Source: a virus
Reading direction: 5' to 3' (one strand)
Virus record (IMG/VR): IMGVR_UViG_3300031276_000006
Coordinates: 1 to 41,705 of that record
DNA length: 41,705 nt
The position numbers and the translations under genes were made by a program. Shown one piece after another: positions 4,984 to 41,323 of this stretch. A model generated the notes under the pieces. The model saw nothing but the letters and a program-made list of their open reading frames with translations, was not told the origin of the DNA and made no database searches. How positions within the stretch are numbered: position 1 is the stretch's first letter; each line of letters starts with the position of its first letter.

Positions 4984-6371
4984 CACGCCTCACGGTGTAC
5001 GCGGTGGCGTAGATACCAGAGCGCCCCGAGCGTCAATTCGTCATCCAGATCGTGCGAAGCCGAGCGTTCGCCTGCAATCACCACGAGCCCACCCTCGATG
5101 GGCACCTCCCAATTGCGCATGACATAATCCAAGGTGGAGTTCACTCCGGTCGCCCCACTGCCGGTCAATTCGTAGCGGCTGAATCCGGTGCCTTCGCCTT
5201 CTTCGTTGACCCAATAGCGCACCTGCCCAAATTCTTCTGGAGATGCGACATAGAATATATTGCCGTTTGAGCTGGCGGCGTAATGCTCGGACGGGATAAG
5301 TACCAGGGCGTCAAGATAAATCGTCGGTGTCCCGCTGATGCGCTCCGCCTTGACTGCCAGGGCGAAATCAGCGATTGATGCATCGCTGTACCAATTGCTC
5401 CGGTAGGCGAACGGCGGGATGTTCACCTCTCCGAGCTCAACCAGCCGCCAACTTGTGGCGGTGACAAACTTTTCTTCCTGCGCAGCCTTAACGCTGTCAT
5501 TCTCGAAACCGCTGGCAAGCTGTAGCCCGACCACACCCGAGGCGCTGAGCTTGTAGCGCAACAGCACGACATACGACCCGATAAAATGGGTGTAGTTGGT
5601 GTCACCAATCACGTCAGCGATCTTTATGGTAGCACGTGTGCGCAATCCGGTCTGTGTGGCGAAGCTGCAAGACATCGCGTTGTCCGCAACCGACCCGCTC
5701 GGGCTGGCCCCCGTCTGGGTTGCTACTGCCGCGTCAGTTCCACCGGCTGCGTCCTCCAGTTCCCACACCGGCTCGAAGGATGAAATGCCGTAACGCGTCG
5801 GTCGGATGCCAATCCACGAGCGCACAATCGGGCCAACGGCAGCATCGATGGCGGTGAGTGAGAAGTAGTTCAGGCGCGCTGGCAGGTTGCCCTTGATGGC
5901 GCTAATCGTCTCGGTGCCGCCAAAGCAGTTTGTGCCCGCCTTGACCCAGGCGGTCGATGCGCTCACGTCCTCCCAGGCTGATGAGTGCGTGATGATCAGC
6001 GAATAGTACGCGCCACTCTTTCCGAGGGTGGGCAGATAATCCTGGTTAGATACCGCCATAATCTGAATATTGTAAATCAGGGCGCGCTTGGTTGTCTCGG
6101 CTGTGGCGCTGTACTCATACCAGATGGATGACTTTTGGAACGGCGAATCGAAGAATAAATTGACCGCTTCGGCGAGTTCTGAGATTGCATTTACCGCGGC
6201 AATGATCGTGCCATCGGTTGCATCTCTGGCAACAAGCTGCATTGTCTCGACTACCCGACCATCGGAATCGAGTGATGACATCCAGCCGCCAGCCATCGGC
6301 TTGAGTACAGCCGTCAGGAAATCATAGGTCGTGGTTTGTTCATAATTTGCGATGCGGTGAACGACTGCCAT
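4983..6371 (-). CDS. Tail-tip structural protein, 462 aa
   Basis: First gene after the tape measure, the position of distal tail (Dit-like) proteins. About 100 residues at the N-terminus suit a tail-ring domain. The later part is beta-rich (VVLLRYKLSASGVVGLQLAS, GTPTIYLDALVLIP) and looks like a jelly-roll carbohydrate-binding module, as seen in evolved Dit proteins. The ATG overlaps the tape-measure stop (TAATG). A structural role is likely; sugar binding is inference. Confidence 0.65.
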   Translation of the reverse strand: MAVVHRIANYEQTTTYDFLTAVLKPMAGGWMSSLDSDGRVVETMQLVARDATDGTIIAAVNAISELAEAVNLFFDSPFQKSSIWYEYSATAETTKRALIYNIQIMAVSNQDYLPTLGKSGAYYSLIITHSSAWEDVSASTAWVKAGTNCFGGTETISAIKGNLPARLNYFSLTAIDAAVGPIVRSWIGIRPTRYGISSFEPVWELEDAAGGTDAAVATQTGASPSGSVADNAMSCSFATQTGLRTRATIKIADVIGDTNYTHFIGSYVVLLRYKLSASGVVGLQLASGFENDSVKAAQEEKFVTATSWRLVELGEVNIPPFAYRSNWYSDASIADFALAVKAERISGTPTIYLDALVLIPSEHYAASSNGNIFYVASPEEFGQVRYWVNEEGEGTGFSRYELTGSGATGVNSTLDYVMRNWEVPIEGGLVVIAGERSASHDLDDELTLGALWYLRHRVHREA

Positions 6372-15471: not shown

Positions 15472-15876
15472 TCACTTGCCGACCAAATAGCTCAAAGTCA
15501 AGAAGCAGGCGGTCGGGTTGCCTGATCCGTCCTCCTGATAGTCAACGACCAGCCATTCGCCAGCATCGAGGAATGCGTAATCGTCGTCAATGGTGAAATC
15601 CTGCGGGATCTTGATTGTCCAGTAGGTCGCAGCGGTGCCGCCGATGGCTGCGGCAATCGTGCCGTTCACGGCTGGCGTTCCAGCGCTTGAGTATTTATGC
15701 AGAGCCAGGGAGAACGATGTGCCGGCATTCATGGTCGCGCCGTTGCTCGCGCTGGCTTCCAGGATTCGCAGGCCTCCGCCGTGGGCATCAGTTGGCGCCT
15801 GGAGAACGAAAAGCTGCTTGTTATCCCCACCCGGATCGGGGATCGAAATCGAGAGAGTCTTTACATCAAAAGCCAT
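15472..15876 (-). CDS. Possible head decoration / minor capsid protein, 134 aa
   Basis: Beta-rich protein (TLSISIPDPGGDNKQLFVLQ, TYWTIKIPQDFTIDDDYAFL) immediately downstream of the major capsid gene, where decoration or stabilisation proteins are often encoded. No specific family is recognised. Separated from the capsid by 12 bases and followed by a strong hairpin. Confidence 0.55.
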   Translation of the reverse strand: MAFDVKTLSISIPDPGGDNKQLFVLQAPTDAHGGGLRILEASASNGATMNAGTSFSLALHKYSSAGTPAVNGTIAAAIGGTAATYWTIKIPQDFTIDDDYAFLDAGEWLVVDYQEDGSGNPTACFLTLSYLVGK

Positions 15877-30299: not shown

Positions 30300-30491
30300 T
30301 TAGTCGTTGCAGCCGCAATATTGATCTTCGGCGTCCCACGTCTCAGCTTCCTCCGTGTTGTACGGATCGCCTAATTCTGACGGGTACCACTCGCCGCCAT
30401 TGTTCGGGGTGTAAGCCCAGTGCCAATAGTGACTCCCGGCACTGCAATAATAGATTTTGTCCGTATCGTGCTCGTCCGTGCTTGCGCTCAT
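30300..30491 (-). CDS. Possible separate 63-aa product from an internal start
   Basis: ATG 30491 is in frame inside the 307-aa gene and is preceded by GGCGAAACAGGAGACTAAA, the same leader 13-mer as the 30251 start. The product (MSASTDEHDTDKIYYCSAGS... ending QYCGCND) is acidic with spaced cysteines. Either an overlapping two-product gene or an old fusion of a small gene onto the nuclease. Confidence 0.5.
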   Translation of the reverse strand: MSASTDEHDTDKIYYCSAGSHYWHWAYTPNNGGEWYPSELGDPYNTEEAETWDAEDQYCGCND

Positions 30492-31223
30492 TTTAGTCTC
30501 CTGTTTCGCCACTTTTTCGATCAAGTCATATCGATTGATATATTTTTGCCATTTAGATAACTCTGGCCTTGAGGTGGGCCAGGCGAAAACCAAAAATTCT
30601 CTTTTCGTTGGGATCTTGGATGCTGGAACTACAAAGACATCATCAAGACCTGCAATAACCAGCATGTATATATCTGCGTCATCACGTTTATTTCCTGCAT
30701 TGACCTTGAAAGACCATGTCGGACTGATGTTTTTCATTGACGGAGAGGATCGGGGGGTTTCGGCACTTTTTACGTCAATCCTTACATTACCAAATGCGAG
30801 AATATCGAAAGGGTGACGCAACGGCATAAGTTCGTTTTCTATTCCGACTTCAGATAGCTTTTCGGAAGCCCACTCTTCCCATAAAAATCCCTTTGAAACT
30901 GCGCTATTTTCATCTTTTCTTACAGCATGGCGGAAACCACCCCTATGTTTTGCAACATAATCAATCGTTGTATTGAGTTGCAAGGCTATTTCATCATTAG
31001 TCAGATGTGCTGTTTCCTTGAGCCAATCTTCATCTTTTAGTGTGTCAAAATATTCATTTGCCTGGAACCCCGTATTTCCAATAATTTGATGTACTCTCTG
31101 GCGAGATACTCCATACCTATCCCCTATTTTCTGTAGTGACCACCTTTTGACCATTCTCAAGTAGCGCATTTCCTTATCTCGGCGACTAGACAGCTCTTCT
31201 AGTTTCTCTTGATATTCGCTCAT
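30300..31223 (-). CDS. HTH + PD-(D/E)XK nuclease-like protein, 307 aa
   Basis: The N-terminus has a sigma-region-4-like helix-turn-helix (WSLQKIGDRYGVSRQRVHQI, 29-48). The middle has GFLWEEWASEKLSEVGIENE followed by HPFDILAFGNVRIDVKSAE, whose Asp...Asp-x-Lys spacing fits a PD-(D/E)XK core. A third, Trp/Tyr/Cys-rich part (about 245-307) starts at an internal ATG with its own ribosome site and may also be made separately. First gene of the leftward early arm. A restriction-like or DNA-processing nuclease is suggested; function unproven. Confidence 0.7.
   Translation of the reverse strand: MSEYQEKLEELSSRRDKEMRYLRMVKRWSLQKIGDRYGVSRQRVHQIIGNTGFQANEYFDTLKDEDWLKETAHLTNDEIALQLNTTIDYVAKHRGGFRHAVRKDENSAVSKGFLWEEWASEKLSEVGIENELMPLRHPFDILAFGNVRIDVKSAETPRSSPSMKNISPTWSFKVNAGNKRDDADIYMLVIAGLDDVFVVPASKIPTKREFLVFAWPTSRPELSKWQKYINRYDLIEKVAKQETKMSASTDEHDTDKIYYCSAGSHYWHWAYTPNNGGEWYPSELGDPYNTEEAETWDAEDQYCGCND
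30498..30510 (-). repeat. GGCGAAACAGGAG leader 13-mer, copy 2
   Basis: Second minus-strand copy, before the internal ATG at 30491. Confidence 0.8.
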
Positions 31224-31263: not shown

Positions 31264-31292
31264 AGTATAGCACTCAGACGCAAATTTGTCAA
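31264..31292 (-). promoter_or_regulatory. Leftward early promoter
   Basis: TTGACA (31292-31287), 17-bp spacer, TATACT (31269-31264). Expected start near 31,258, ahead of the 31,223 ATG. An operator-like AATAC-tttt-GTATT overlaps its -35. Confidence 0.85.
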
Positions 31293-31304
31293 TACTTTTG
31301 TATT
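31291..31304. promoter_or_regulatory. Operator-like palindrome at the early promoter
   Basis: AATAC-TTTT-GTATT, 5-bp arms, with the same ATAC-TTTT-GTAT core as 27460-27479. It overlaps the upstream edge of the leftward -35 and lies in the divergent promoter region. Confidence 0.65.
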
Positions 31305-31323
31305 ACCAGTTTATTACATCATA

Positions 31324-31352
31324 TTGACATATTTATTATTATCTGTTATAGT
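31324..31352 (+). promoter_or_regulatory. Rightward early promoter
   Basis: TTGACA (31324-31329), 17-bp spacer, TATAGT (31347-31352), start expected near 31,359. It faces away from the leftward promoter 32 bp upstream. The small palindrome AGATATCT follows at about 31,355-31,362 and could be a further operator. The remainder of the 156-bp gap is AT-rich without a gene. Confidence 0.85.
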
Positions 31353-34384: not shown

Positions 34385-34399
34385 TTGACAAGGCGGGCG
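34385..34399. repeat. 15-bp repeat TTGACAAGGCGGGCG, copy 1
   Basis: Repeated exactly at 34610-34624, where it forms the -35 region of a promoter. Here no -10 follows at the right distance. Confidence 0.8.
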
Positions 34400-34609: not shown

Positions 34610-34637
34610 TTGACAAGGCGGGCGATTGTGGTAGAAT
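34610..34637 (+). promoter_or_regulatory. Promoter before structured RNA 1
   Basis: TTGACA (34610-34615), 16-bp spacer, TAGAAT (34632-34637), start expected near 34,644, seven bases before the first paired segment of the RNA element. Part of the -35 side is the repeated 15-mer. A small frame overlapping here is discussed under rejected items. Confidence 0.6.
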
Positions 34638-34650
34638 TGTAGGTAGTAAT

Positions 34651-34782
34651 ACCCGGCCAAGTGTAAGAAGGAGCGTTTTTTTAAGCGCACCGCAACCGAA
34701 TATTCTGGGGCGATCTGCCCTTATCAGTCACTATCCTTCTACCCTTGGCCGGGTCCAGAATAGCTATGGCTGGTAAGGGCAG
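34651..34782 (+). ncRNA. Structured RNA 1 with crossing helices A C B A' C' B'
   Basis: Segments: A 34651-34672 pairs with A' 34734-34754 (20 pairs, one mismatch, one bulge). C 34701-34708 (TATTCTGG) pairs exactly with C' 34755-34762. B 34715-34727 pairs with B' 34770-34782 (13 pairs, one G-U). A local hairpin lies at 34673-34688. All three long helices cross each other, so they cannot form one flat fold; pseudoknots or alternative states are implied. B' ends 8 bases before the ribosome site of the nuclease gene at 34803. Same arrangement as 40705-40802. Confidence 0.6.
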
Positions 34783-34802
34783 TTTGCTTTAAGGAGTTAG
34801 CA

Positions 34803-35429
34803 ATGGCAGACGTAAACATAGATTGGGGTCGGGTGAATATCCTTGAAGCTGATATTGAAGAATATCTCTACCAAAATCCAACATCAATTAGGCTATATCA
34901 GGGGATGTTTATCAAAGAATGGGTTGCGAGGCAATTCCATGTTCCAAGTGGTGTAATCGACTTGTTGGGGGTAGCTAATAACGGGTGCTATGTTGTTGTC
35001 GAAGTGAAGAATACAGAGATAACGTCATCGGCCCTCACCCAGGTGTCGAGATACGCTCAAGATATTGAGCGCATATTCTCAAAAATCGACAAGCTCCACA
35101 ACCATTATAACTTTGCTGGAAAGATCGTAATTGGGCGCGAGCCAGTTACAAATCAAATAATCTTTGAAGCGGAAGCACTCGGAATTACTCTGTTGACATT
35201 TGATGTCAGTCTATCTCTCAACATATCCAGTAGTTGGGGTTGGAGTAAGAAATATTTAAATGAGCTGGATGACACATATGAAAACCTCAAAGATGACCGT
35301 GCGTTTTTCTATGTCATGAAGGCGGTCATGGAAGATGCTGAAACAGACGAAGAAGATACCATCCAGGCCGCTGAAGAAATCATAAAGCGAACAAAGCCAA
35401 ATGATGGGAGCGATCCTGACGAAGAATAA
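34803..35429 (+). CDS. NucS/RecB-like PD-(D/E)XK nuclease, 208 aa
   Basis: GVIDLLGVANNGCYVVVEVK has Asp53, Glu67 and Lys69 in PD-(D/E)XK spacing, and ALTQVSRYAQ (77-86) is the QxxxY helix that follows in NucS/DUF91-type nucleases. The N-terminal EEYLYQNPTSIRLYQG matches their entry helix. The last 40 residues are acidic. AAGGAG lies 8 bases before the ATG and next to the RNA element. It could act on mismatched or branched DNA; the lack of the NucS N-terminal dimer domain makes exact activity uncertain. Confidence 0.78.
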   Translation: MADVNIDWGRVNILEADIEEYLYQNPTSIRLYQGMFIKEWVARQFHVPSGVIDLLGVANNGCYVVVEVKNTEITSSALTQVSRYAQDIERIFSKIDKLHNHYNFAGKIVIGREPVTNQIIFEAEALGITLLTFDVSLSLNISSSWGWSKKYLNELDDTYENLKDDRAFFYVMKAVMEDAETDEEDTIQAAEEIIKRTKPNDGSDPDEE

Positions 35430-35431
35430 AC

Positions 35432-36238
35432 ATGCCACCAAATACTTGGATCAAGCTGCGCAGCGGAATACTCGAACCAAAGCACAGAGAGCGGCTAGGT
35501 ATACGCATCTGGCTCTATCTCTATATGCTTGATCGTGTGGATTGGGAAACTGGAACGATTGAGGATTGGCGAGATAAAGACGCCTCAGAAGAATTGCAAA
35601 TGCCAACAAAGACAATCACACGCCAAAGGCAAGAAATAGCGGACGCAGGATATATAACCTGTCGCCAATCCTTACATCGTCAAGTCATCAGTATCACGAA
35701 TTGGCAAGATCCACGCAGCCGCCTATTAGATGAAGGAAGTCATGATACTCAGAAGTGCGTACCATCAGATCATGGTACGCATAAACGGGTATCTTATGGT
35801 ACCCATAAGCGCGTACCATATGGCCCCAGAAAAGTGAGTACCATCTATCTTAATCCACATATTAATAAACACATTAAAGGATTAAAGGGGGGCGATAAAC
35901 CGCCATCCACGCCGCGCGCCAAATCAACTCGTGATGGGCGTTTAAGCCACCCGGCACTAACGACTTACAGAGAAGTTGCGAGCTTGCATATTCCGAAAGT
36001 TTGGCGGGATAAGGCAATTCAAGTTGTGGGTGAGGATCCAGAAAATATTATGCGTTGGCGTAATCACGTTACAGACTGGATCGGGCACGGCTGGAATAAG
36101 GCGAACGTAAAGGGTATGTTGGAATCGTTCGCGACTGGTGGAATAAAAAGCAATGGGCGCGGCAAAAACAAATCCGAACCCGCCGGCTTCGCTGGCATCC
36201 GCGAATACCTGGAGGAGCAGAATGACGACCAAATCTGA
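35432..36238 (+). CDS. Replication initiator, winged-helix N-terminus (lambda O-like layout)
   Basis: 268 aa. The first 100 residues (WIKLRSGILEPKHRERLGIR; LQMPTKTITRQRQEIADAGY) are a winged-helix domain as in phage replication organisers, with LYLYMLDRVDW marking its core. Residues 110-150 are low complexity (THKRVSYGTHKRVPYG), because this DNA is a set of iterons. The C-terminal half (YREVASLHIPKVW, WRNHVTDWIGHGWNKANVKG) probably contacts the helicase loader encoded next. The arrangement, origin within the initiator gene and loader gene after it, parallels lambda O and P. Confidence 0.75.
   Translation: MPPNTWIKLRSGILEPKHRERLGIRIWLYLYMLDRVDWETGTIEDWRDKDASEELQMPTKTITRQRQEIADAGYITCRQSLHRQVISITNWQDPRSRLLDEGSHDTQKCVPSDHGTHKRVSYGTHKRVPYGPRKVSTIYLNPHINKHIKGLKGGDKPPSTPRAKSTRDGRLSHPALTTYREVASLHIPKVWRDKAIQVVGEDPENIMRWRNHVTDWIGHGWNKANVKGMLESFATGGIKSNGRGKNKSEPAGFAGIREYLEEQNDDQI
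35757..35890 (+). other. Candidate replication origin: GTACCAT iterons plus AT-rich tract
   Basis: GTACCAT occurs at 35759-35765, 35813-35819 and 35838-35844, and its complement ATGGTAC at 35772-35778 and 35796-35802: five copies in 86 bp, all inside the initiator gene. Two of them form the long palindrome GCGTACCAT...ATGGTACGC. An AT-rich stretch (about 35845-35885) follows and would suit strand opening. Confidence 0.72.
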
Positions 36239-36797
36239 GATATCCGAAATCCTGGCGATGCTGGCCGCAGCCTATCCCAGGTTCACGCTCACCAAAGAGA
36301 CGGTGACAGTCTACGTCCGTTTGCTCGCAGACATTCCCGTCGAGGAGCTCAGGGCTGCGGCACTCAAATGCGCGACTGGCAACGACTTCTTCCCGTCCGT
36401 TCACGAGCTGCGTCAGGCCATTGCCGAACTGAAACGCGAGGCGCAAAAGATACCCAGCGCATACGAGGCGTGGAGTTTCGTCAAGGATAAACCGCACTAC
36501 GAAATCATGAAGCGGGTTGAGGAAAAGGACGGCAAATTTTACATGGTCGAGTTTCCCGTAACCTGGGAGCACCCCTTCGTGGAGCACGTCGCCCGCTTGC
36601 TTGGCTGGCCAGACTCATTCCCTGGTGACAACCCCGTTGCAGACCGGGCGCACTTCTTCAAAGCATACGATCATGAGTTGGGCCGCGAAATTGACAGCAG
36701 CGTGCAGCTCCCCGAACTGGCGCAATTCGTGGACAGGTCGCGGGACGCGCTGCCACAGAAGATCCAGAACGTATTACCGGAGGCGAATAATGGATAA
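36222..36797 (+). CDS. Helicase loader-like protein (G39P-like)
   Basis: 191 aa. EILAMLAAAYPRFTLTKETV followed by VYVRLLADIPVEELRAAALK and a short FFPSVHELRQAI is the N-terminal helical domain of SPP1 G39P-type loaders. It lies directly after the initiator gene and overlaps it by 17 bases. The C-terminal part is variable and should bind the replicative helicase, for which the phage must depend on the host because none is encoded here. GGAGGAG precedes the ATG. Confidence 0.8.
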   Translation: MTTKSEISEILAMLAAAYPRFTLTKETVTVYVRLLADIPVEELRAAALKCATGNDFFPSVHELRQAIAELKREAQKIPSAYEAWSFVKDKPHYEIMKRVEEKDGKFYMVEFPVTWEHPFVEHVARLLGWPDSFPGDNPVADRAHFFKAYDHELGREIDSSVQLPELAQFVDRSRDALPQKIQNVLPEANNG

Positions 36798-37260
36798 GCT
36801 ACAAGAGATTAAGGCGAGAGAGGCGAAAGCTACACCGGGGCCGTGGGATAACGAGAACGGATATATGATTTGTGGCGTAAATGATGGCTCTCACAAAGAT
36901 TGGAAGCCACCAAAACGAATAAAGTCCGGTGAATGTGCATTCTGTGGTAACGGAGATCCCATCGCAATTGTGCAAAAAAATGGGAAAACTTTTCATGTTC
37001 ACAAATACGCTAAAGATGATCGATATTCCGATGCATGGCACAACATTGCCAGCGCATCTACTTACGATGACATAACCGGAAATTATGACTACGAAGAGGG
37101 TGGTGTTTGTTCAACCAAAGAAGATTCTGACTTTATCGCTCACGCCCGCGAGGACATTCCCTGGATGATTGCAGAGATTGAGCGAATGCGCGACAAGATA
37201 AACCGTTGGCGCACAGGTGGAATGCTTATTGAAGAGTTGGATCCAGAGGTTGAACCATGA
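36790..37260 (+). CDS. Ead/Ea22-like phage protein, 156 aa
   Basis: The ends KLQEIKAREAKATPGPWDN and DSDFIAHAREDIPWMIAEIE are the conserved ends of a family widespread in phages and called Ead/Ea22-like. A central Cys pair (GECAFCGNGDPIAIVQK) is inserted. ATG 36790 overlaps the previous stop by 8 bases; a long in-frame upstream extension lies under the loader gene. Function unknown in the family. Confidence 0.72.
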   Translation: MDKLQEIKAREAKATPGPWDNENGYMICGVNDGSHKDWKPPKRIKSGECAFCGNGDPIAIVQKNGKTFHVHKYAKDDRYSDAWHNIASASTYDDITGNYDYEEGGVCSTKEDSDFIAHAREDIPWMIAEIERMRDKINRWRTGGMLIEELDPEVEP

Positions 37261-37580
37261 CCACCCCAATTCTTACCGACGATATCCCAGCCGCCCAACT
37301 CGTGACCGTGCGCGGTTGCGCGCTGCGTTGGAACCTTTACGGGCGTGTGTGTTCGGCTTATCAATTCGAGAAGGCGAAGCCGCACGACTTCCGCGACTGG
37401 ACAGACTATGACATTGCGCTGGATGACTACCGCGCCCACATCGCCGCCTGTGAACAATGCCAGAAGCGAGACGCGGCGATCCTGGCGGGCAGCACGGTTG
37501 TGCCACACCCCGAGGAACCGACCGTCAACGCAGAGCGCGCAGAACTGATCGAGCGCATGAAACGAGAGCGCGGCCTATGA
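37257..37580 (+). CDS. Hypothetical protein, 107 aa
   Basis: Mostly helical, with a CEQCQKRDA element near residue 67 and an acidic to basic C-terminus (RAELIERMKRERGL). An internal LYGRVCSAYQFEKAK resembles small phage DNA-metabolism accessory proteins without known role. Overlaps the previous gene by 4 bases. Confidence 0.65.
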   Translation: MTTPILTDDIPAAQLVTVRGCALRWNLYGRVCSAYQFEKAKPHDFRDWTDYDIALDDYRAHIAACEQCQKRDAAILAGSTVVPHPEEPTVNAERAELIERMKRERGL

Positions 37581-37617
37581 CCAACCACCTGCCCGCGGGC
37601 AATAAGGAGCGAAAGTG

Positions 37618-37848
37618 ATGAGTACCGAGATTGAGCAATTTCACGAACTGATGAAGGCAGTCCGTAAGGTCAGGAAAGAGGTGACCATGAGCTTCGACTC
37701 CCTGGCCTCCCTGGAGGATGAGATAACCGCACTCGAGGCTGATAATAAGAGTCTGCAAAATGCAATTGCTCAGGTCATCATTGCGGCGGGGAAAGTAGCA
37801 TCCACGGCACTTGAAGCACTGGAGGCATTAGATAATGACCAAACTTGA
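37618..37848 (+). CDS. Coiled-coil protein, 76 aa
   Basis: Heptad-patterned (FHELMKAVRKVRKEVTMSFD; LASLEDEITALEADNKSLQN) throughout, so probably a small helical dimer. ATG 37618 follows GGAG; GTG 37615 is also in frame. The C-terminal ALEALEALD repeats match the end of the next protein (KALEAID), suggesting the two share an ancestral end. Confidence 0.64.
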   Translation: MSTEIEQFHELMKAVRKVRKEVTMSFDSLASLEDEITALEADNKSLQNAIAQVIIAAGKVASTALEALEALDNDQT

Positions 37849-38284
37849 CGAAATCAAGAAGCACCTTGCCGACCTCGAGGCGGACAACTTGACCTCGACA
37901 TTCGAACTGACCGGGGATATGCGGGCGCTGGTGGATGAGGTGGAGCGGCTGCGGGATGATGGCTTGCGCGCCGAGAAGGATCGCCAGGCCATTCACGAAA
38001 TGTTGCTCCGTGCAGGTGTCCCGGTGGCAACGGGCGCAGCGTGCGACGATCCTGAGTGCCAGTCACAACTACAGCACCGCGTCGGGTGGCTGCTCGATGA
38101 GCGCGACAGGCTGCGGGATGCTCTTCGAGAATTACATCTCAGAACTTCCAGGGATATGATGATTGCCGACAATGAAAATTATAGCGATAAAGACAAGTGG
38201 CAATCGTTGAACGATTTATCCAAGGCGCTCTCAAAGGCGTGGAAAGCACTGGAGGCCATCGATGCCGATCAACCTGACCTATAA
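37835..38284 (+). CDS. Coiled-coil protein with Cys pair, 149 aa
   Basis: Helical with two coils (DEIKKHLADLEADNLTSTFE; WLLDERDRLRDALRELHLRT) around a short CDDPECQS site. Overlaps the gene before by 14 bases and the nuclease gene after by 23. No known domain. Confidence 0.64.
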   Translation: MTKLDEIKKHLADLEADNLTSTFELTGDMRALVDEVERLRDDGLRAEKDRQAIHEMLLRAGVPVATGAACDDPECQSQLQHRVGWLLDERDRLRDALRELHLRTSRDMMIADNENYSDKDKWQSLNDLSKALSKAWKALEAIDADQPDL

Positions 38285-38630
38285 CAAATTCGGAAACGAG
38301 AAAGTCGACGCGGATGGCTACGAGTTCGATAGCCTGGCGGAGCGCGACCGCTATGGGCAACTCAAGCTCATGGTGAAGTCGGGCGAAATCTGGCAGCTCC
38401 AGGTGCATCCAACTTTCACGCTGATCGACGCGTTCACATACCGCGGGCGGCGCATCCGGGGCACGAAGTATGAGGCTGACTTCCAGTATTGCTCAGCCGC
38501 CGGCGTGATAGTCGAGGACGTGAAGGGCAAAGAGACTGAGGGCTTTCGCATCAAGCGAAAATTGTTCATGAAGAGGTATCCGGGAATTGTATTCAAGACC
38601 GTGAGAGCGGAGGAGGTAAGGGAGCGATAA
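38262..38630 (+). CDS. DUF1064 nuclease-like protein, 122 aa
   Basis: FDSLAERDRYGQLKLMVKSG followed by RGTKYEADFQYCSAAGVIVE and DVKGKETEGFRIKRKLF has the Glu...Asp...Glu-x-Lys set of a VRR/PD-(D/E)XK-type DUF1064 protein, near the common 110-120 aa size. The family replaces RusA-like Holliday-junction resolvases in many phages. Could resolve branched DNA formed with the ERF recombinase before packaging. Confidence 0.82.
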   Translation: MPINLTYNKFGNEKVDADGYEFDSLAERDRYGQLKLMVKSGEIWQLQVHPTFTLIDAFTYRGRRIRGTKYEADFQYCSAAGVIVEDVKGKETEGFRIKRKLFMKRYPGIVFKTVRAEEVRER

Positions 38631-39013
38631 TGCCAAACCACCCCGTCCAGCACCGCACCATCGACGGCGTAGAATGCAAACGCTGTTCCTGTTGCGGAGA
38701 GTGGAAGTCGGTGACCGAGTACAGCCGGGCGCACTGGATGTCCGACAGGCTGCACTCGACCTGTAAGCCGTGCCGGGCGGCGAAGGAGCGCAACCGCCAC
38801 ACCGTCAAATACGCAGCGGCGCGGGTGTACTACTCGGTGATGCACGACCCGCTGGGGGTGTGGGAACCCGAGCGGATATTTACGAGGCGAGAACTTGAAG
38901 CCGCGATCAAGCTGGACAGGATACCGCTGGGGTCGGTGCTCGAGCGGCAGGATGGGAAGTTGTTTCGATTGGCGATGGATGGAAAACTTGTGATAGCGAA
39001 GGAGGCGAGATGA
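38630..39013 (+). CDS. Zinc-finger protein (endonuclease VII N-terminus-like), 127 aa
   Basis: ECKRCSCCGEWKSVTEYSRA and STCKPCRAAKERNRH form a two-knuckle zinc site typical of the N-terminal part of phage endonuclease VII-like proteins. The His-based catalytic part of those enzymes is not visible. The second half (FTRRELEAAIKLDRIPLGSV) seems to be a separate small domain. DNA binding likely; nuclease activity doubtful. Confidence 0.66.
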   Translation: MPNHPVQHRTIDGVECKRCSCCGEWKSVTEYSRAHWMSDRLHSTCKPCRAAKERNRHTVKYAAARVYYSVMHDPLGVWEPERIFTRRELEAAIKLDRIPLGSVLERQDGKLFRLAMDGKLVIAKEAR

Positions 39014-39204
39014 AAACATTTGAAGAGGCAAGAGATTTTTGTCATGTGAGGTCGGCAATTTATCAGGCATCGAATCCCGATAAAAAGTATTGGAAAAATA
39101 ACTTTTTGACGCTTGATGAGCAGGTGCCAGAGCCACTCAAGAAGATGAATGATTGGCTGGAATATGATCCGCAAGATGAGGAACCATATCATATACCCGC
39201 ATAG
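39010..39204 (+). CDS. Conserved phage hypothetical protein, 64 aa
   Basis: MKTFEEARDFCHVRSAIYQA, then SNPDKKYWKNNFLTLDEQVP and DWLEYDPQDEEPYH. The pattern of VRSAI, NPxxxYWKN, VP and DWxEYDP is recognisable as a conserved small phage protein without an assigned role. Coupled to the previous gene by ATGA. Confidence 0.68.
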   Translation: MKTFEEARDFCHVRSAIYQASNPDKKYWKNNFLTLDEQVPEPLKKMNDWLEYDPQDEEPYHIPA

Positions 39205-39260
39205 AATGATCCGCTGCGGAAGTGCCAATCTCACCACACAACCCCGCGGCGTTTCAGGAT

Positions 39261-39308
39261 TGCCTTTGGGATGGGCGGGTGTTCCAGACTGAGCCCATCC
39301 CAAGGCAC
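39261..39308 (+). other. 15-bp hairpin in the gap before a zinc-ribbon gene
   Basis: TGCCTTTGGGATGGGC (39261-39276 region) pairs with GCCCATCCCAAGGCA (to 39308) with one bulge; loop of about 16 bases. It lies just 5' of the ribosome site GGAGG of the next gene (ATG 39322). The rest of the 117-bp gap has no gene or clear promoter. Possibly controls translation of the gene. Confidence 0.68.
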
Positions 39309-39321
39309 ATCAGGAGGATTG

Positions 39322-39525
39322 ATGGACGAAAATAGCGAACTCGACTACCAGGATGAAAACGGCGTATGGCATATCATGTGCGCCTGCGGGCACACCGTCA
39401 GCGGCGCCGCGAAGCTTGGCGACAAGATTGCGACCTGCCCCAACTGCCGCTTTCGGCTGGCATTCGGCAGCCCGGTGATGGTCATGTACCCGGAGCGCCT
39501 GCCGGATGATTTGGACGTAAAATAA
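39322..39525 (+). CDS. Zinc-ribbon protein, 67 aa
   Basis: IMCACGHTVSGAAKLGDKIA followed by TCPNCRFRLAFGSP, four cysteines in two knuckles 14-18 residues apart. AGGAGG lies 6 bases before the ATG, and a stable hairpin precedes it. Function unknown; the fold often binds RNA, DNA or RNA polymerase. Confidence 0.7.
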   Translation: MDENSELDYQDENGVWHIMCACGHTVSGAAKLGDKIATCPNCRFRLAFGSPVMVMYPERLPDDLDVK

Positions 39526-39596
39526 ATTATCCCCCCCCCTACCCCACCGCGGAGTAGGGAGGTGGCAATTTCATAGACTGGAATCGGACGGACGCA

Positions 39597-40223
39597 ATGT
39601 CTAAGGAGCCCAAATTGACAACTCCACTTCTGGCGATCACAATCGCCGCACTGCTGGCGACGGTCGCGGCAAATATCCCGGACGCCTCGCGCTTCGCATG
39701 GCTCAAGCCTTTCTTGATCGTCGTTGCCATCGTATTCGCCGCCGTGTTTATTGTCACGGCCTGGGATTGGTTCATGCACGTCAGGGCGGAGCGGCTGCGC
39801 GAAATCGAGGCCGCCAGAGCATACGCCGCAGTGATGGTCGCCCAGGCGGTGCGCGGGCTGACCGGCTCCCAGGTGGATATCGTCAGCCGCTACGGGCTAA
39901 TCGAGGTAGAGGGTCTGCTTGGGCAAAATCAGGTGCTTTGGACGATCCGAGCGCCAGGCGGAAATATCCCGCTCGAATATCTGAGCGACTTCCTGTGGCA
40001 GTCCAGGCAGACGCGGCCCAACCTGTGGCCCATCCGCAAGCACGACATTTTCAGCACGGAAGAGTTTGCCTGGAAGTGCAACACGGAGGAGATGAGCGCC
40101 AGGATTACTGACTTCCTGGTCGGGCGTGATTATGCAGCGCCCGCAAGCGGTAACAATGCGGCCCGGCTGCTGGTCAGCCTGGAGGAAGTCGCCAATGTGT
40201 TCGGGATTGATTTGGAGGGATGA
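39597..40223 (+). CDS. Two-span membrane protein with cytoplasmic domain, 208 aa
   Basis: Residues about 8-60 contain two transmembrane helices (LLAITIAALLATVAANI; LIVVAIVFAAVFIVTAWDW), followed by a helix and a soluble domain (about 85-208; IVSRYGLIEVEGLLGQNQVL). It is the largest membrane protein of the early-right arm. Its 71-bp upstream gap is C/G-rich, with a small CCCTAC...GTAGGG hairpin. A superinfection-exclusion role would suit its form but is speculation. Confidence 0.66.
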   Translation: MSKEPKLTTPLLAITIAALLATVAANIPDASRFAWLKPFLIVVAIVFAAVFIVTAWDWFMHVRAERLREIEAARAYAAVMVAQAVRGLTGSQVDIVSRYGLIEVEGLLGQNQVLWTIRAPGGNIPLEYLSDFLWQSRQTRPNLWPIRKHDIFSTEEFAWKCNTEEMSARITDFLVGRDYAAPASGNNAARLLVSLEEVANVFGIDLEG

Positions 40224-40390
40224 TGAACAAAACCATTTGCGGTCGATGTAAGAAAGAGATCCCGGTCGACGAAGCCGAAACCTGCTGGTATTGCCATGCG
40301 GACTTGTGTTTCGAGTGTTGGGACGAGGTCGGACACTGCGGCCATCCAGAGGCCGAAGCAATCAACGACATGGGGCGCAGCAATGAATGA
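40220..40390 (+). CDS. Cys-rich zinc-binding protein, 56 aa
   Basis: Starting at ATGATG (40220), the frame reads MMNKTICGRCKKEIPVDEAE, then TCWYCHADLCFECWDEVGHC with GHPEAEA after it. The eight Cys/His residues are in a cross-brace-like order (CxxC...CxxC...CxxC...C..H), like a small RING or B-box/ZZ domain, rare in phage. GGAGG lies 5 bases before the first ATG. Overlaps both neighbours. Confidence 0.68.
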   Translation: MMNKTICGRCKKEIPVDEAETCWYCHADLCFECWDEVGHCGHPEAEAINDMGRSNE

Positions 40391-40658
40391 CGAATTGTTC
40401 GCAGAACTGATCGAAAGCATCAAAGAATCTGGCGCAATCCAGCGCGGCGAGCTGAAACCTGGCAGGCAGTTTTTCGTTGGGCAGTGGATCCCGGTGGAGG
40501 ATCACCCGCCCGAGATACCCAGTTATGTCTTGGTCTACGAGGATGGGGACATGCGCACCTGTGGATATGATGAGCACGGCTTTACCGATTGGGATCATAA
40601 TCCAGTGCCGCCAATTGATTACGGCAGTATTACCAAATGGATGCCGCTGCCGGATTAG
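40383..40658 (+). CDS. DUF551-containing protein, 91 aa
   Basis: The C-terminal 60 residues (GQWIPVEDHPPEIPSYVLVY ... ITKWMPLPD) carry the WIPVxxxxP...VLVY...W.P...ITHWMPLP pattern of DUF551, a common small phage protein of unknown role. The N-terminal 30 residues form a helix. ATG 40383 overlaps the gene before by 8 bases. Confidence 0.8.
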   Translation: MNDELFAELIESIKESGAIQRGELKPGRQFFVGQWIPVEDHPPEIPSYVLVYEDGDMRTCGYDEHGFTDWDHNPVPPIDYGSITKWMPLPD

Positions 40659-40668
40659 CCGAAATGAA

Positions 40669-40697
40669 TAGACAACTTTGCGTTTCCGTGATAAAAT
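40669..40697 (+). promoter_or_regulatory. Promoter before structured RNA 2
   Basis: TAGACA (40669-40674), 17-bp spacer, TAAAAT (40692-40697), each 5 of 6 consensus. The start is expected near 40,704, at the first base of segment A of the RNA element. Confidence 0.62.
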
Positions 40698-40704
40698 TAT
40701 AGTC

Positions 40705-40806
40705 GCTGAGGGTTGACGGGTTTTTTATTGCCTGACAGAGAGCCGCTATTTTGCGTAGACCCGTCCCCTCAGCAAGGATTAGGCAAGCGCAAGATAGCGG
40801 CTTTTT
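40705..40806 (+). ncRNA. Structured RNA 2 with crossing helices A C B A' C' B'
   Basis: A 40705-40721 pairs with A' 40759-40773 (15 pairs, 2-base bulge). C 40728-40733 (TTGCCT) pairs exactly with C' 40781-40786. B 40741-40755 pairs with B' 40788-40802 (15 pairs, one G-U), and B' runs into TTTTT, so B-B' can act as terminator, giving an RNA of about 100 nt. Order and overlap of segments equal structured RNA 1, though the sequence differs. No useful reading frame crosses it. An HNH gene starts 16 bases after the U-run. Confidence 0.65.
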
Positions 40807-40822
40807 GATCGGAGCGCGATAG

Positions 40823-41323
40823 ATGGCTAGAAAGCGAATGTCATTAGAAGAGAGGTTCTGGAAAGAAGCGAAACCAGGAGATAAAGATAGCTGTTGGGAG
40901 TGGATGGGTGCAAAGACACCCGCTGGATATGGTCATATCAATTGGAATAGCACTCACTATTATACGCATAGGTTGTCTTGGATGATTCATAATGGCAAGA
41001 TCCCAAAAGGAATGGAAGTATGCCATCACTGTGATAATCCAGGGTGCGTAAACCCCGCTCATCTATTTCTAGGAACCCACCGGGATAATATGAGAGATAG
41101 GGACAAGAAAAAGAGAGGGATATTTTCAAACCCAAAGTTCAAGGGGATCATAGTTCATGTTCGTGGAGAGAAATCCCCTGTAGCAAAATTAACAGATAGG
41201 CAAGTCAAAGAAATCAGAATGTTGTACGCAAGAGGAGGATGGTCATACCCAAAGTTAGCCAAAAGATACAAAGTGAGTGAGCAAACAATTTATAGATTGA
41301 TAACACTTAAATCAAGAGCGTAG
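40823..41323 (+). CDS. HNH endonuclease with C-terminal HTH, 166 aa
   Basis: CHHCDNPGCVNPAHLFLGTH (67-86) is the HNH_3 zinc/catalytic core. TPAGYGHINWNS and THRLSWMIHNGKIPKG before it are the usual lead-in. A helix-turn-helix (RQVKEIRMLYARGGWSYPKL then AKRYKVSEQTIYRL) gives DNA specificity. The architecture is that of free-standing homing-type endonucleases. It follows an RNA element with a terminator-like end. Rich in AT compared with the late genes, consistent with a mobile gene. Confidence 0.9.
   Translation: MARKRMSLEERFWKEAKPGDKDSCWEWMGAKTPAGYGHINWNSTHYYTHRLSWMIHNGKIPKGMEVCHHCDNPGCVNPAHLFLGTHRDNMRDRDKKKRGIFSNPKFKGIIVHVRGEKSPVAKLTDRQVKEIRMLYARGGWSYPKLAKRYKVSEQTIYRLITLKSRA

Follow-up and report, generated by a model that had tools for sequence, protein, structure and literature searches.

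Leaders with three mutually crossing helices at the starts of phage operons are candidate transcription attenuators

In type III toxin-antitoxin systems (ToxI and its kin), a pseudoknotted RNA is followed by a terminator and then by a gene. In classical attenuators and riboswitch-type terminators, a 5' leader with alternative pairings ends in a terminator stem and a U run before the ribosome site. The put RNA of phage HK022 is a phage-encoded, promoter-proximal element of about 70 nucleotides (nt), present in more than one copy per genome and built of two stem-loops with conserved sequence (PMC9378689). 'Pseudotrefoil' pseudoknots, in which three helices cross one another in the order ABCABC, were counted 51 times in one survey covering 1939 RNA secondary structures (PMC3390330). 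Here we describe two leaders in IMG/VR virus record IMGVR_UViG_3300031276_000006, whose 41,705 bases are the window analysed. In both, six segments follow one another in the order A C B A' C' B', with A pairing with A', C with C' and B with B'. Similar leaders recur in other metagenomic phages, and we propose that they may act as transcription attenuators.

The leaders share something with each of these systems. Like classical attenuators and riboswitch-type terminators, they are 5' leaders with alternative pairings and a terminator-like stem and U run before the ribosome site; unlike them, they have alternative helices that cross rather than share a strand in tandem, neither a leader peptide nor a ligand pocket was identified, and sequence is conserved in one subfamily only. 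Put is likewise phage-encoded, promoter-proximal and multicopy, but the leaders differ from it in topology and have no sequence in common, and our scan found no ABCABC pairing in HK022. Taken abstractly, the leaders and the pseudotrefoils arrange their three mutually crossing helices in the same order; the leader helices are long, however, and phages use this order repeatedly in leaders of unrelated sequence. As in ToxI and its kin, a pseudoknotted RNA with a terminator-like end precedes a gene; in contrast to these, the leaders lack repeats and a ToxN-family gene, and their neighbours vary. Tandem short pseudoknot repeats are absent, with one unit per locus and no direct repeats within leaders. 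No ToxN, CptN or TenpN endoribonuclease was found downstream by Pfam, which instead gave NucS_C and HNH_3 in the window and MT-A70, HNH, DnaD-like and other domains elsewhere. At the gathering score, no Rfam 15 covariance model matches the window, in agreement with the suggestion, made in an earlier note on this DNA, of an undescribed RNA class. A relaxed search gave generic microRNA (miRNA)-hairpin or small nucleolar RNA (snoRNA) matches only, far under threshold, at both loci and four other loci. The open literature, to which the search was confined, held no description of such leaders. The fold class is new, while attenuation itself is an already-known type of control; the likely function is a new variant of it.

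Leader 1 (plus strand, as are all features below unless noted) lies behind a sigma-70-like promoter, TTGACA-16-TAGAAT, at 34610-34637 (11 of 12 matches in a consensus scan). The 15 bases that start this promoter, TTGACAAGGCGGGCG, occur twice in the window, at 34385-34399 and 34610-34624, 225 bases apart. Helix A is computed between 34651-34672 and 34734-34754 (A') and comprises 20 base pairs (bp) with one mismatch and one bulge, at a duplex energy of -33.5 kcal/mol. A small local hairpin, GCGTTTTTTTAAGCGC, is visible in the fold at 34673-34688, in the interval between A and C. Helix C pairs TATTCTGG (34701-34708) with its 8-bp complement CCAGAATA (34755-34762), immediately after A'; this complementarity between the two loops has P = 0.0045 when loop letters are shuffled. 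Helix B joins 34715-34727 to 34770-34782 (B'; 13 bp including one G-U, -21.5 kcal/mol). After B' come a terminator-like U-rich run, TTTGCTTT (34783-34790, T in 6 of 8), the Shine-Dalgarno (SD) sequence AAGGAG of the next gene (34791-34796) and the start codon, 20 nt from the end of B'.

Leader 2 has the same layout. Its sigma-70-like promoter, TAGACA-17-TAAAAT, lies at 40669-40697 (10 of 12 matches), and helix A pairs 40705-40720 with 40760-40773 (14 bp with a 2-nt bulge, -25.4 kcal/mol). The 6-bp helix C joins TTGCCT (40728-40733) to AGGCAA (40781-40786), with P = 0.042 for its complementarity alone under the same shuffling. Helix B (40741-40755 with 40788-40802; 15 bp, -25.2 kcal/mol) runs into GGC-TTTTT, whose U run occupies 40802-40806; a Shine-Dalgarno-like CGGAG follows at 40810-40814, and again 20 nt separate the end of B' from the start codon. 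The paired sequences of the two leaders are unrelated. The earlier note had reported both loci with this segment order and placed their beginnings within about 7 bases of predicted transcription starts, and both statements hold. It had also set the loci apart, one ending at a ribosome site and the other in a U run. These endings are present as described, but the leaders are the same in kind, because leader 1 also has a U-rich run, TTTGCTTT, after B'.

Leaders 1 and 2 stand out from chance pairing. We scanned for interleaved helices A..B..A'..B', scored on A and B alone and without use of C, after replacing earlier scanner versions that allowed pairing too freely. The two leaders are the top two interleaved helix pairs of the window, with scores of 41.0 and 36.0, and the highest score among 200 locally dinucleotide-shuffled windows, scrambled controls of equal composition as proposed in the earlier note, is 33.0. 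On whole contigs of relatives, the same scanner yielded leaders in L074 (IMG/VR 3300033149_003492), L049 (3300045739_000027), L077 (3300033149_003685), L189 (3300014208_000065), L252 (3300047550_003227) and L265 (3300033571_009718) and three in L172 (3300024943_000003); those of L294 and L295 were found by a pattern derived from the 5' hairpin of L252 and L265. In total there are 13 leaders in 10 metagenomic phages, 11 of them (in 8 phages) with all six segments in the order A C B A' C' B'; L049 and L077 carry simple A B A' B' pseudoknots. The L172 leaders (a, b and c) lie within 3.4 kilobases, each at a TTGACA-16/17-TATRAT promoter. Leader sequences are mostly unrelated, those of the three L172 copies included.

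A promoter-anchored scan of 650 leaders with a promoter and a ribosome site gave 10 rows (9 distinct leaders) with scores of at least 70, against 0.25 in shuffles, and 8 with at least 80, against 0.0. The best score in the control phages lambda, HK022, phi11 and T7 was 58.5, under the level of the real leaders. L221, L122, L057, L102 and other candidates were set aside as weak or as coding-region coincidences. A DNA similarity search of the leaders against phage and plasmid collections returned no match, and no crossing leader was seen at those IMG/VR relatives of the leader 2 HNH protein (hundreds) that were scanned. A covariance model of the alignable subfamily matched none of 301 Chloroflexota genomes, a set with no positive-control genome among them, and no convincing leader was found in DnaD-like and MT-A70 neighbourhoods in 400 Chloroflexota genomes. 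The pattern ATATTCTGGG-N8-CCCTTATCA is common to leader 1 (34699-34725) and the L074 leader (minus strand, about 15765-15790), and the L074 phage is the sole match to a close pattern in IMG/VR. The C helices of these two leaders nonetheless use different segments; the two possibly share a distant ancestry.

The third helix, C, also shows complementarity far beyond chance. The longest perfect Watson-Crick run between the two loops is 5-10 bp in 11 leaders, and 10 of the 12 independent leaders have C. Shuffling of loop letters gives P of 0.0005-0.07 per leader and a Fisher combined P of 7e-14 when these 12 are pooled, the two that lack C among them. One subfamily is alignable (L265, L294 and L252/L295). 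In it, A has become a kissing interaction between the hairpin loops TGACG and CGTCA, and C measures 9-10 bp with wholly different sequences (GAAAGGGAA/TTCCCTTTC, GGGAAACTGA/TCAGTTTCCC and GATAAGCGC/GCGCTTATC). From L265, L294 and L252 we cut out 27 pairs, belonging to C, the outer part of B and the hairpin that carries A', and registered them by hand. All 81 of 81 cells (100%) are paired. Compensatory changes, which the earlier note had suggested looking for, are computed on both sides in 14 of the 27 pairs and in 7 of 9 pairs of C. None of 500 shuffles is as good, and slid versions pair just 41-53%; the register was picked by eye, which somewhat favours the structure, and the C segments are not alignable by sequence. 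Across the helices there are 21 G-U pairs and 4 C-A mismatches (P = 0.0009), a count somewhat biased by the energy program's preference for G-U; the selected molecule would therefore be RNA of the transcribed strand. These results support a structured RNA whose arrangement is maintained by complementarity rather than by copying, and the unrelated sequences and the recurrence in other phages bear out the earlier note on this point.

All 13 leaders begin at or a few nt from a predicted transcription start (promoters being consensus matches) and run for about 95-155 nt, to just before the ribosome site. From the -10 box, class I leaders consist of 4-13 nt, A, 3-28 nt, C, 0-21 nt and B, followed by 0-11 nt, A', 0-7 nt, C', 1-7 nt, B', the U-rich run and the ribosome site, so that the 3' half, A'C'B', is almost uninterrupted. 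In the kissing-loop subfamily, A is carried on a 5' hairpin and A' on another hairpin. Helix sizes across leaders are up to 20 bp for A, 5-10 bp for C and 13-24 bp for B. B' runs into a U-rich stretch before the ribosome site, averaging 5.5 T in 8 positions where 716 control leaders average 3.4 (P = 1.8e-6), and the subfamily preserves GGGC-TTTT ahead of SD-ATG. Since a G+C-rich stem merges into a U-rich run, B:B' looks like an intrinsic terminator. A further alternative to B:B' exists in the subfamily, where the B strand can pair within itself (GCCTTCnnnGAAGGC); this self-folding is conserved.

In nested minimum-energy folds at growing transcript length, A (class I) or C (subfamily) forms first, and in 12 of the 13 leaders B replaces A or C in the fold as soon as B' has been made; in leader 1 the switch needs the remainder of the leader. 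Simple A-form geometry makes full C and full B incompatible where the gap from C to B is 0-1 nt (L172a, L172b, L172c and L189), and makes A and B mutually incompatible in L049. Because of this folding order and geometry, we propose that A and C hold back terminator B or keep it from forming, and we put the probability that the leaders work in cis as 5' transcription attenuators of phage operons, most of them concerned with replication, at about 55%. B:B' with its U-rich run would be the terminator stem. A:A' (C:C' in the kissing-loop subfamily) would be made before B' exits the polymerase, and C', 1-7 nt ahead of B', would lock the nascent chain in an A/C state that crosses and sterically excludes the complete B stem. 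If the A/C state holds, the polymerase would pass the U run and the operon would be expressed; if it is prevented or displaced in time, B:B' would form, transcription would stop and a short stable RNA would be released. We infer both the termination in the cell and the opposition of C to B, and the balance might be tipped by a phage or host factor or by transcription speed.

Several observations weigh against attenuation. Modelled as a pseudoknot, most leaders could accommodate A together with B, and A need not block termination. The earlier note had taken crossing to imply pseudoknots or switching between states; the pairings do look partly mutually exclusive, but this coexistence limits the claim. 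The L077 leader stays in A, with no flip to B in the nested folds. The terminator loop, from B to B', is about 30-50 nt, far larger than usual, and the U runs of L172c and L074 are poor (4 of 8). No ligand-like conserved sequence or leader peptide was identified in the leaders. Finally, 13 leaders are few, and all come from metagenomic phage contigs.

One alternative is that the leaders stabilise the mRNA or govern its translation, with helix A shielding the 5' end from 5'-end-dependent RNases and the knot freeing or sequestering the ribosome site on demand. In each of the nine class I leaders helix A starts no more than a few nt from the predicted 5' end, B' ends 12-23 nt ahead of the start codon where one is present downstream, and a purely mechanical role fits the absent sequence conservation. 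This explanation, for which a simple hairpin would suffice, leaves the U-run enrichment exactly after B' and the conserved self-folding of the B strand unexplained, and we consider it unlikely. The U run, in favouring a terminator, also speaks against RNA-only processive antitermination, in which the nascent leader would bind RNA polymerase so that later pauses and terminators are ignored. Direct antitermination by put runs through the beta' zinc-binding domain. Put acts just downstream of early promoters and requires no protein factors (PMC9378689). The leaders resemble it in being promoter-proximal, several per phage and each at the head of an operon, and the absence of the knot from the early divergent promoters of the window and of contig G026 also fits. 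But put RNAs share sequence and two plain stem-loops, these leaders share topology only, and the HK022 scan gave no such element, which makes a put-like role quite improbable.

An RNA of 95-150 nt that ends at the U run and acts in trans as a partner of the adjacent nuclease, comparable to type III toxin-antitoxin RNAs, would account for the separate promoter, the terminator-like end, the stable fold and the nuclease genes of the window. Downstream genes vary and are mostly not nucleases, tandem RNA repeats are absent from the leaders and neither window gene matches a type III toxin in Pfam, so we hold this to be very doubtful. Inverted repeats acting at the DNA level, as an origin, recombination or protein-binding site, would suit the replication genes that often adjoin the leaders. 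Yet the leaders always lie downstream of a promoter and are oriented with the operon, G-U pairs outnumber C-A mismatches by 21 to 4, and one strand carries both the U run and the ribosome site that come after; we give such an element almost no credence.

If the leaders are indeed attenuators, phages possess a control RNA invisible to standard RNA-family searches, because its helices cross and its sequence is not kept. They would also provide long triple-crossing pseudoknots of natural origin in which to study the formation of crossing helices as transcription proceeds, and a hint as to the timing of replication genes in phages of Chloroflexota, hosts without genetic systems. A general search route is suggested as well, namely scanning promoters for crossing complementarity rather than for sequence. 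It is tempting to speculate, although the odds are against it, that there is a regulatory RNA class defined by topology only, with three mutually crossing helices and freely replaceable sequence, which times transcription mechanically (folding in the order A, C, B) at operon starts without a ligand or dedicated protein.

The first gene after leader 1 (34803-35429) encodes a NucS_C-like (PD-(D/E)XK-type) protein (Pfam PF01939, E 7e-8), of which no relatives were found in IMG/VR, INPHARED or related contigs. The second (35432-36238) is replication-initiator-like; it has no Pfam match and precedes a G39P-like gene, and on reading, its product has an N-terminal motif like that of the replisome-organiser-like gene behind the L077 leader. 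The helicase-loader-like open reading frame (ORF) that follows, 36153-36797 as listed, has an Inhibitor_G39P domain (PF11417, E 1.3e-5). Leader 2 is followed by an HNH nuclease gene (40823-41323; HNH_3, PF13392, E 4e-17) with a C-terminal helix-turn-helix (HTH), whose relatives occur in 1186 phage records.

The earlier note had proposed that the RNAs control or partner nucleases, a claim that the other leaders do not sustain: behind most of these come DnaD-like replication genes, MT-A70 methylase genes, an IS110-like ORF, small ORFs or nothing recognisable, and only three of the 13 leaders (leaders 1 and 2 and L172b) stand directly ahead of a nuclease gene. HNH genes lie behind leader 2 and L172b and ParB/MT-A70-like genes behind L172a and L265. 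Replisome-organiser-like or similar replication genes, including DnaD-like ones, lie behind L172c, L077, L294, L295 and L252, these replication-initiator calls resting partly on weak Pfam matches and on reading of position. The L189 leader is followed by an IS110-like ORF (5512-6198, minus strand), with a weak match (E 0.006) to Transposase_20, the C-terminal domain of IS110/IS116 transposases, and then by a DnaD_N gene. Behind L074 are small ORFs. No clear gene lies behind L049, where a G+C-rich degenerate repeat tract of GGCATGGC-like units occupies 1480-1700. Because downstream genes vary among leaders, the association with nucleases is mostly chance, together with the high frequency of HNH genes in phages. 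The common denominator is position, from the transcription start to the ribosome site of an operon, mostly a replication operon.

The window encodes head, portal, terminase and Erf-like genes. Since relatives of its terminase are found mainly in Chloroflexota (Anaerolineae) metagenome-assembled genomes and related phage contigs, the host is probably a member of Chloroflexota. At 31264-31352, strong divergent promoters have short, unstructured leaders, and one of them faces an ORF on the minus strand (30300-31223) with a Sigma70_r4-like HTH; this is a probable immediate-early control region. In both the window and G026, divergent promoters with short plain leaders are presumably the earliest, and the inner promoters bear the knot.

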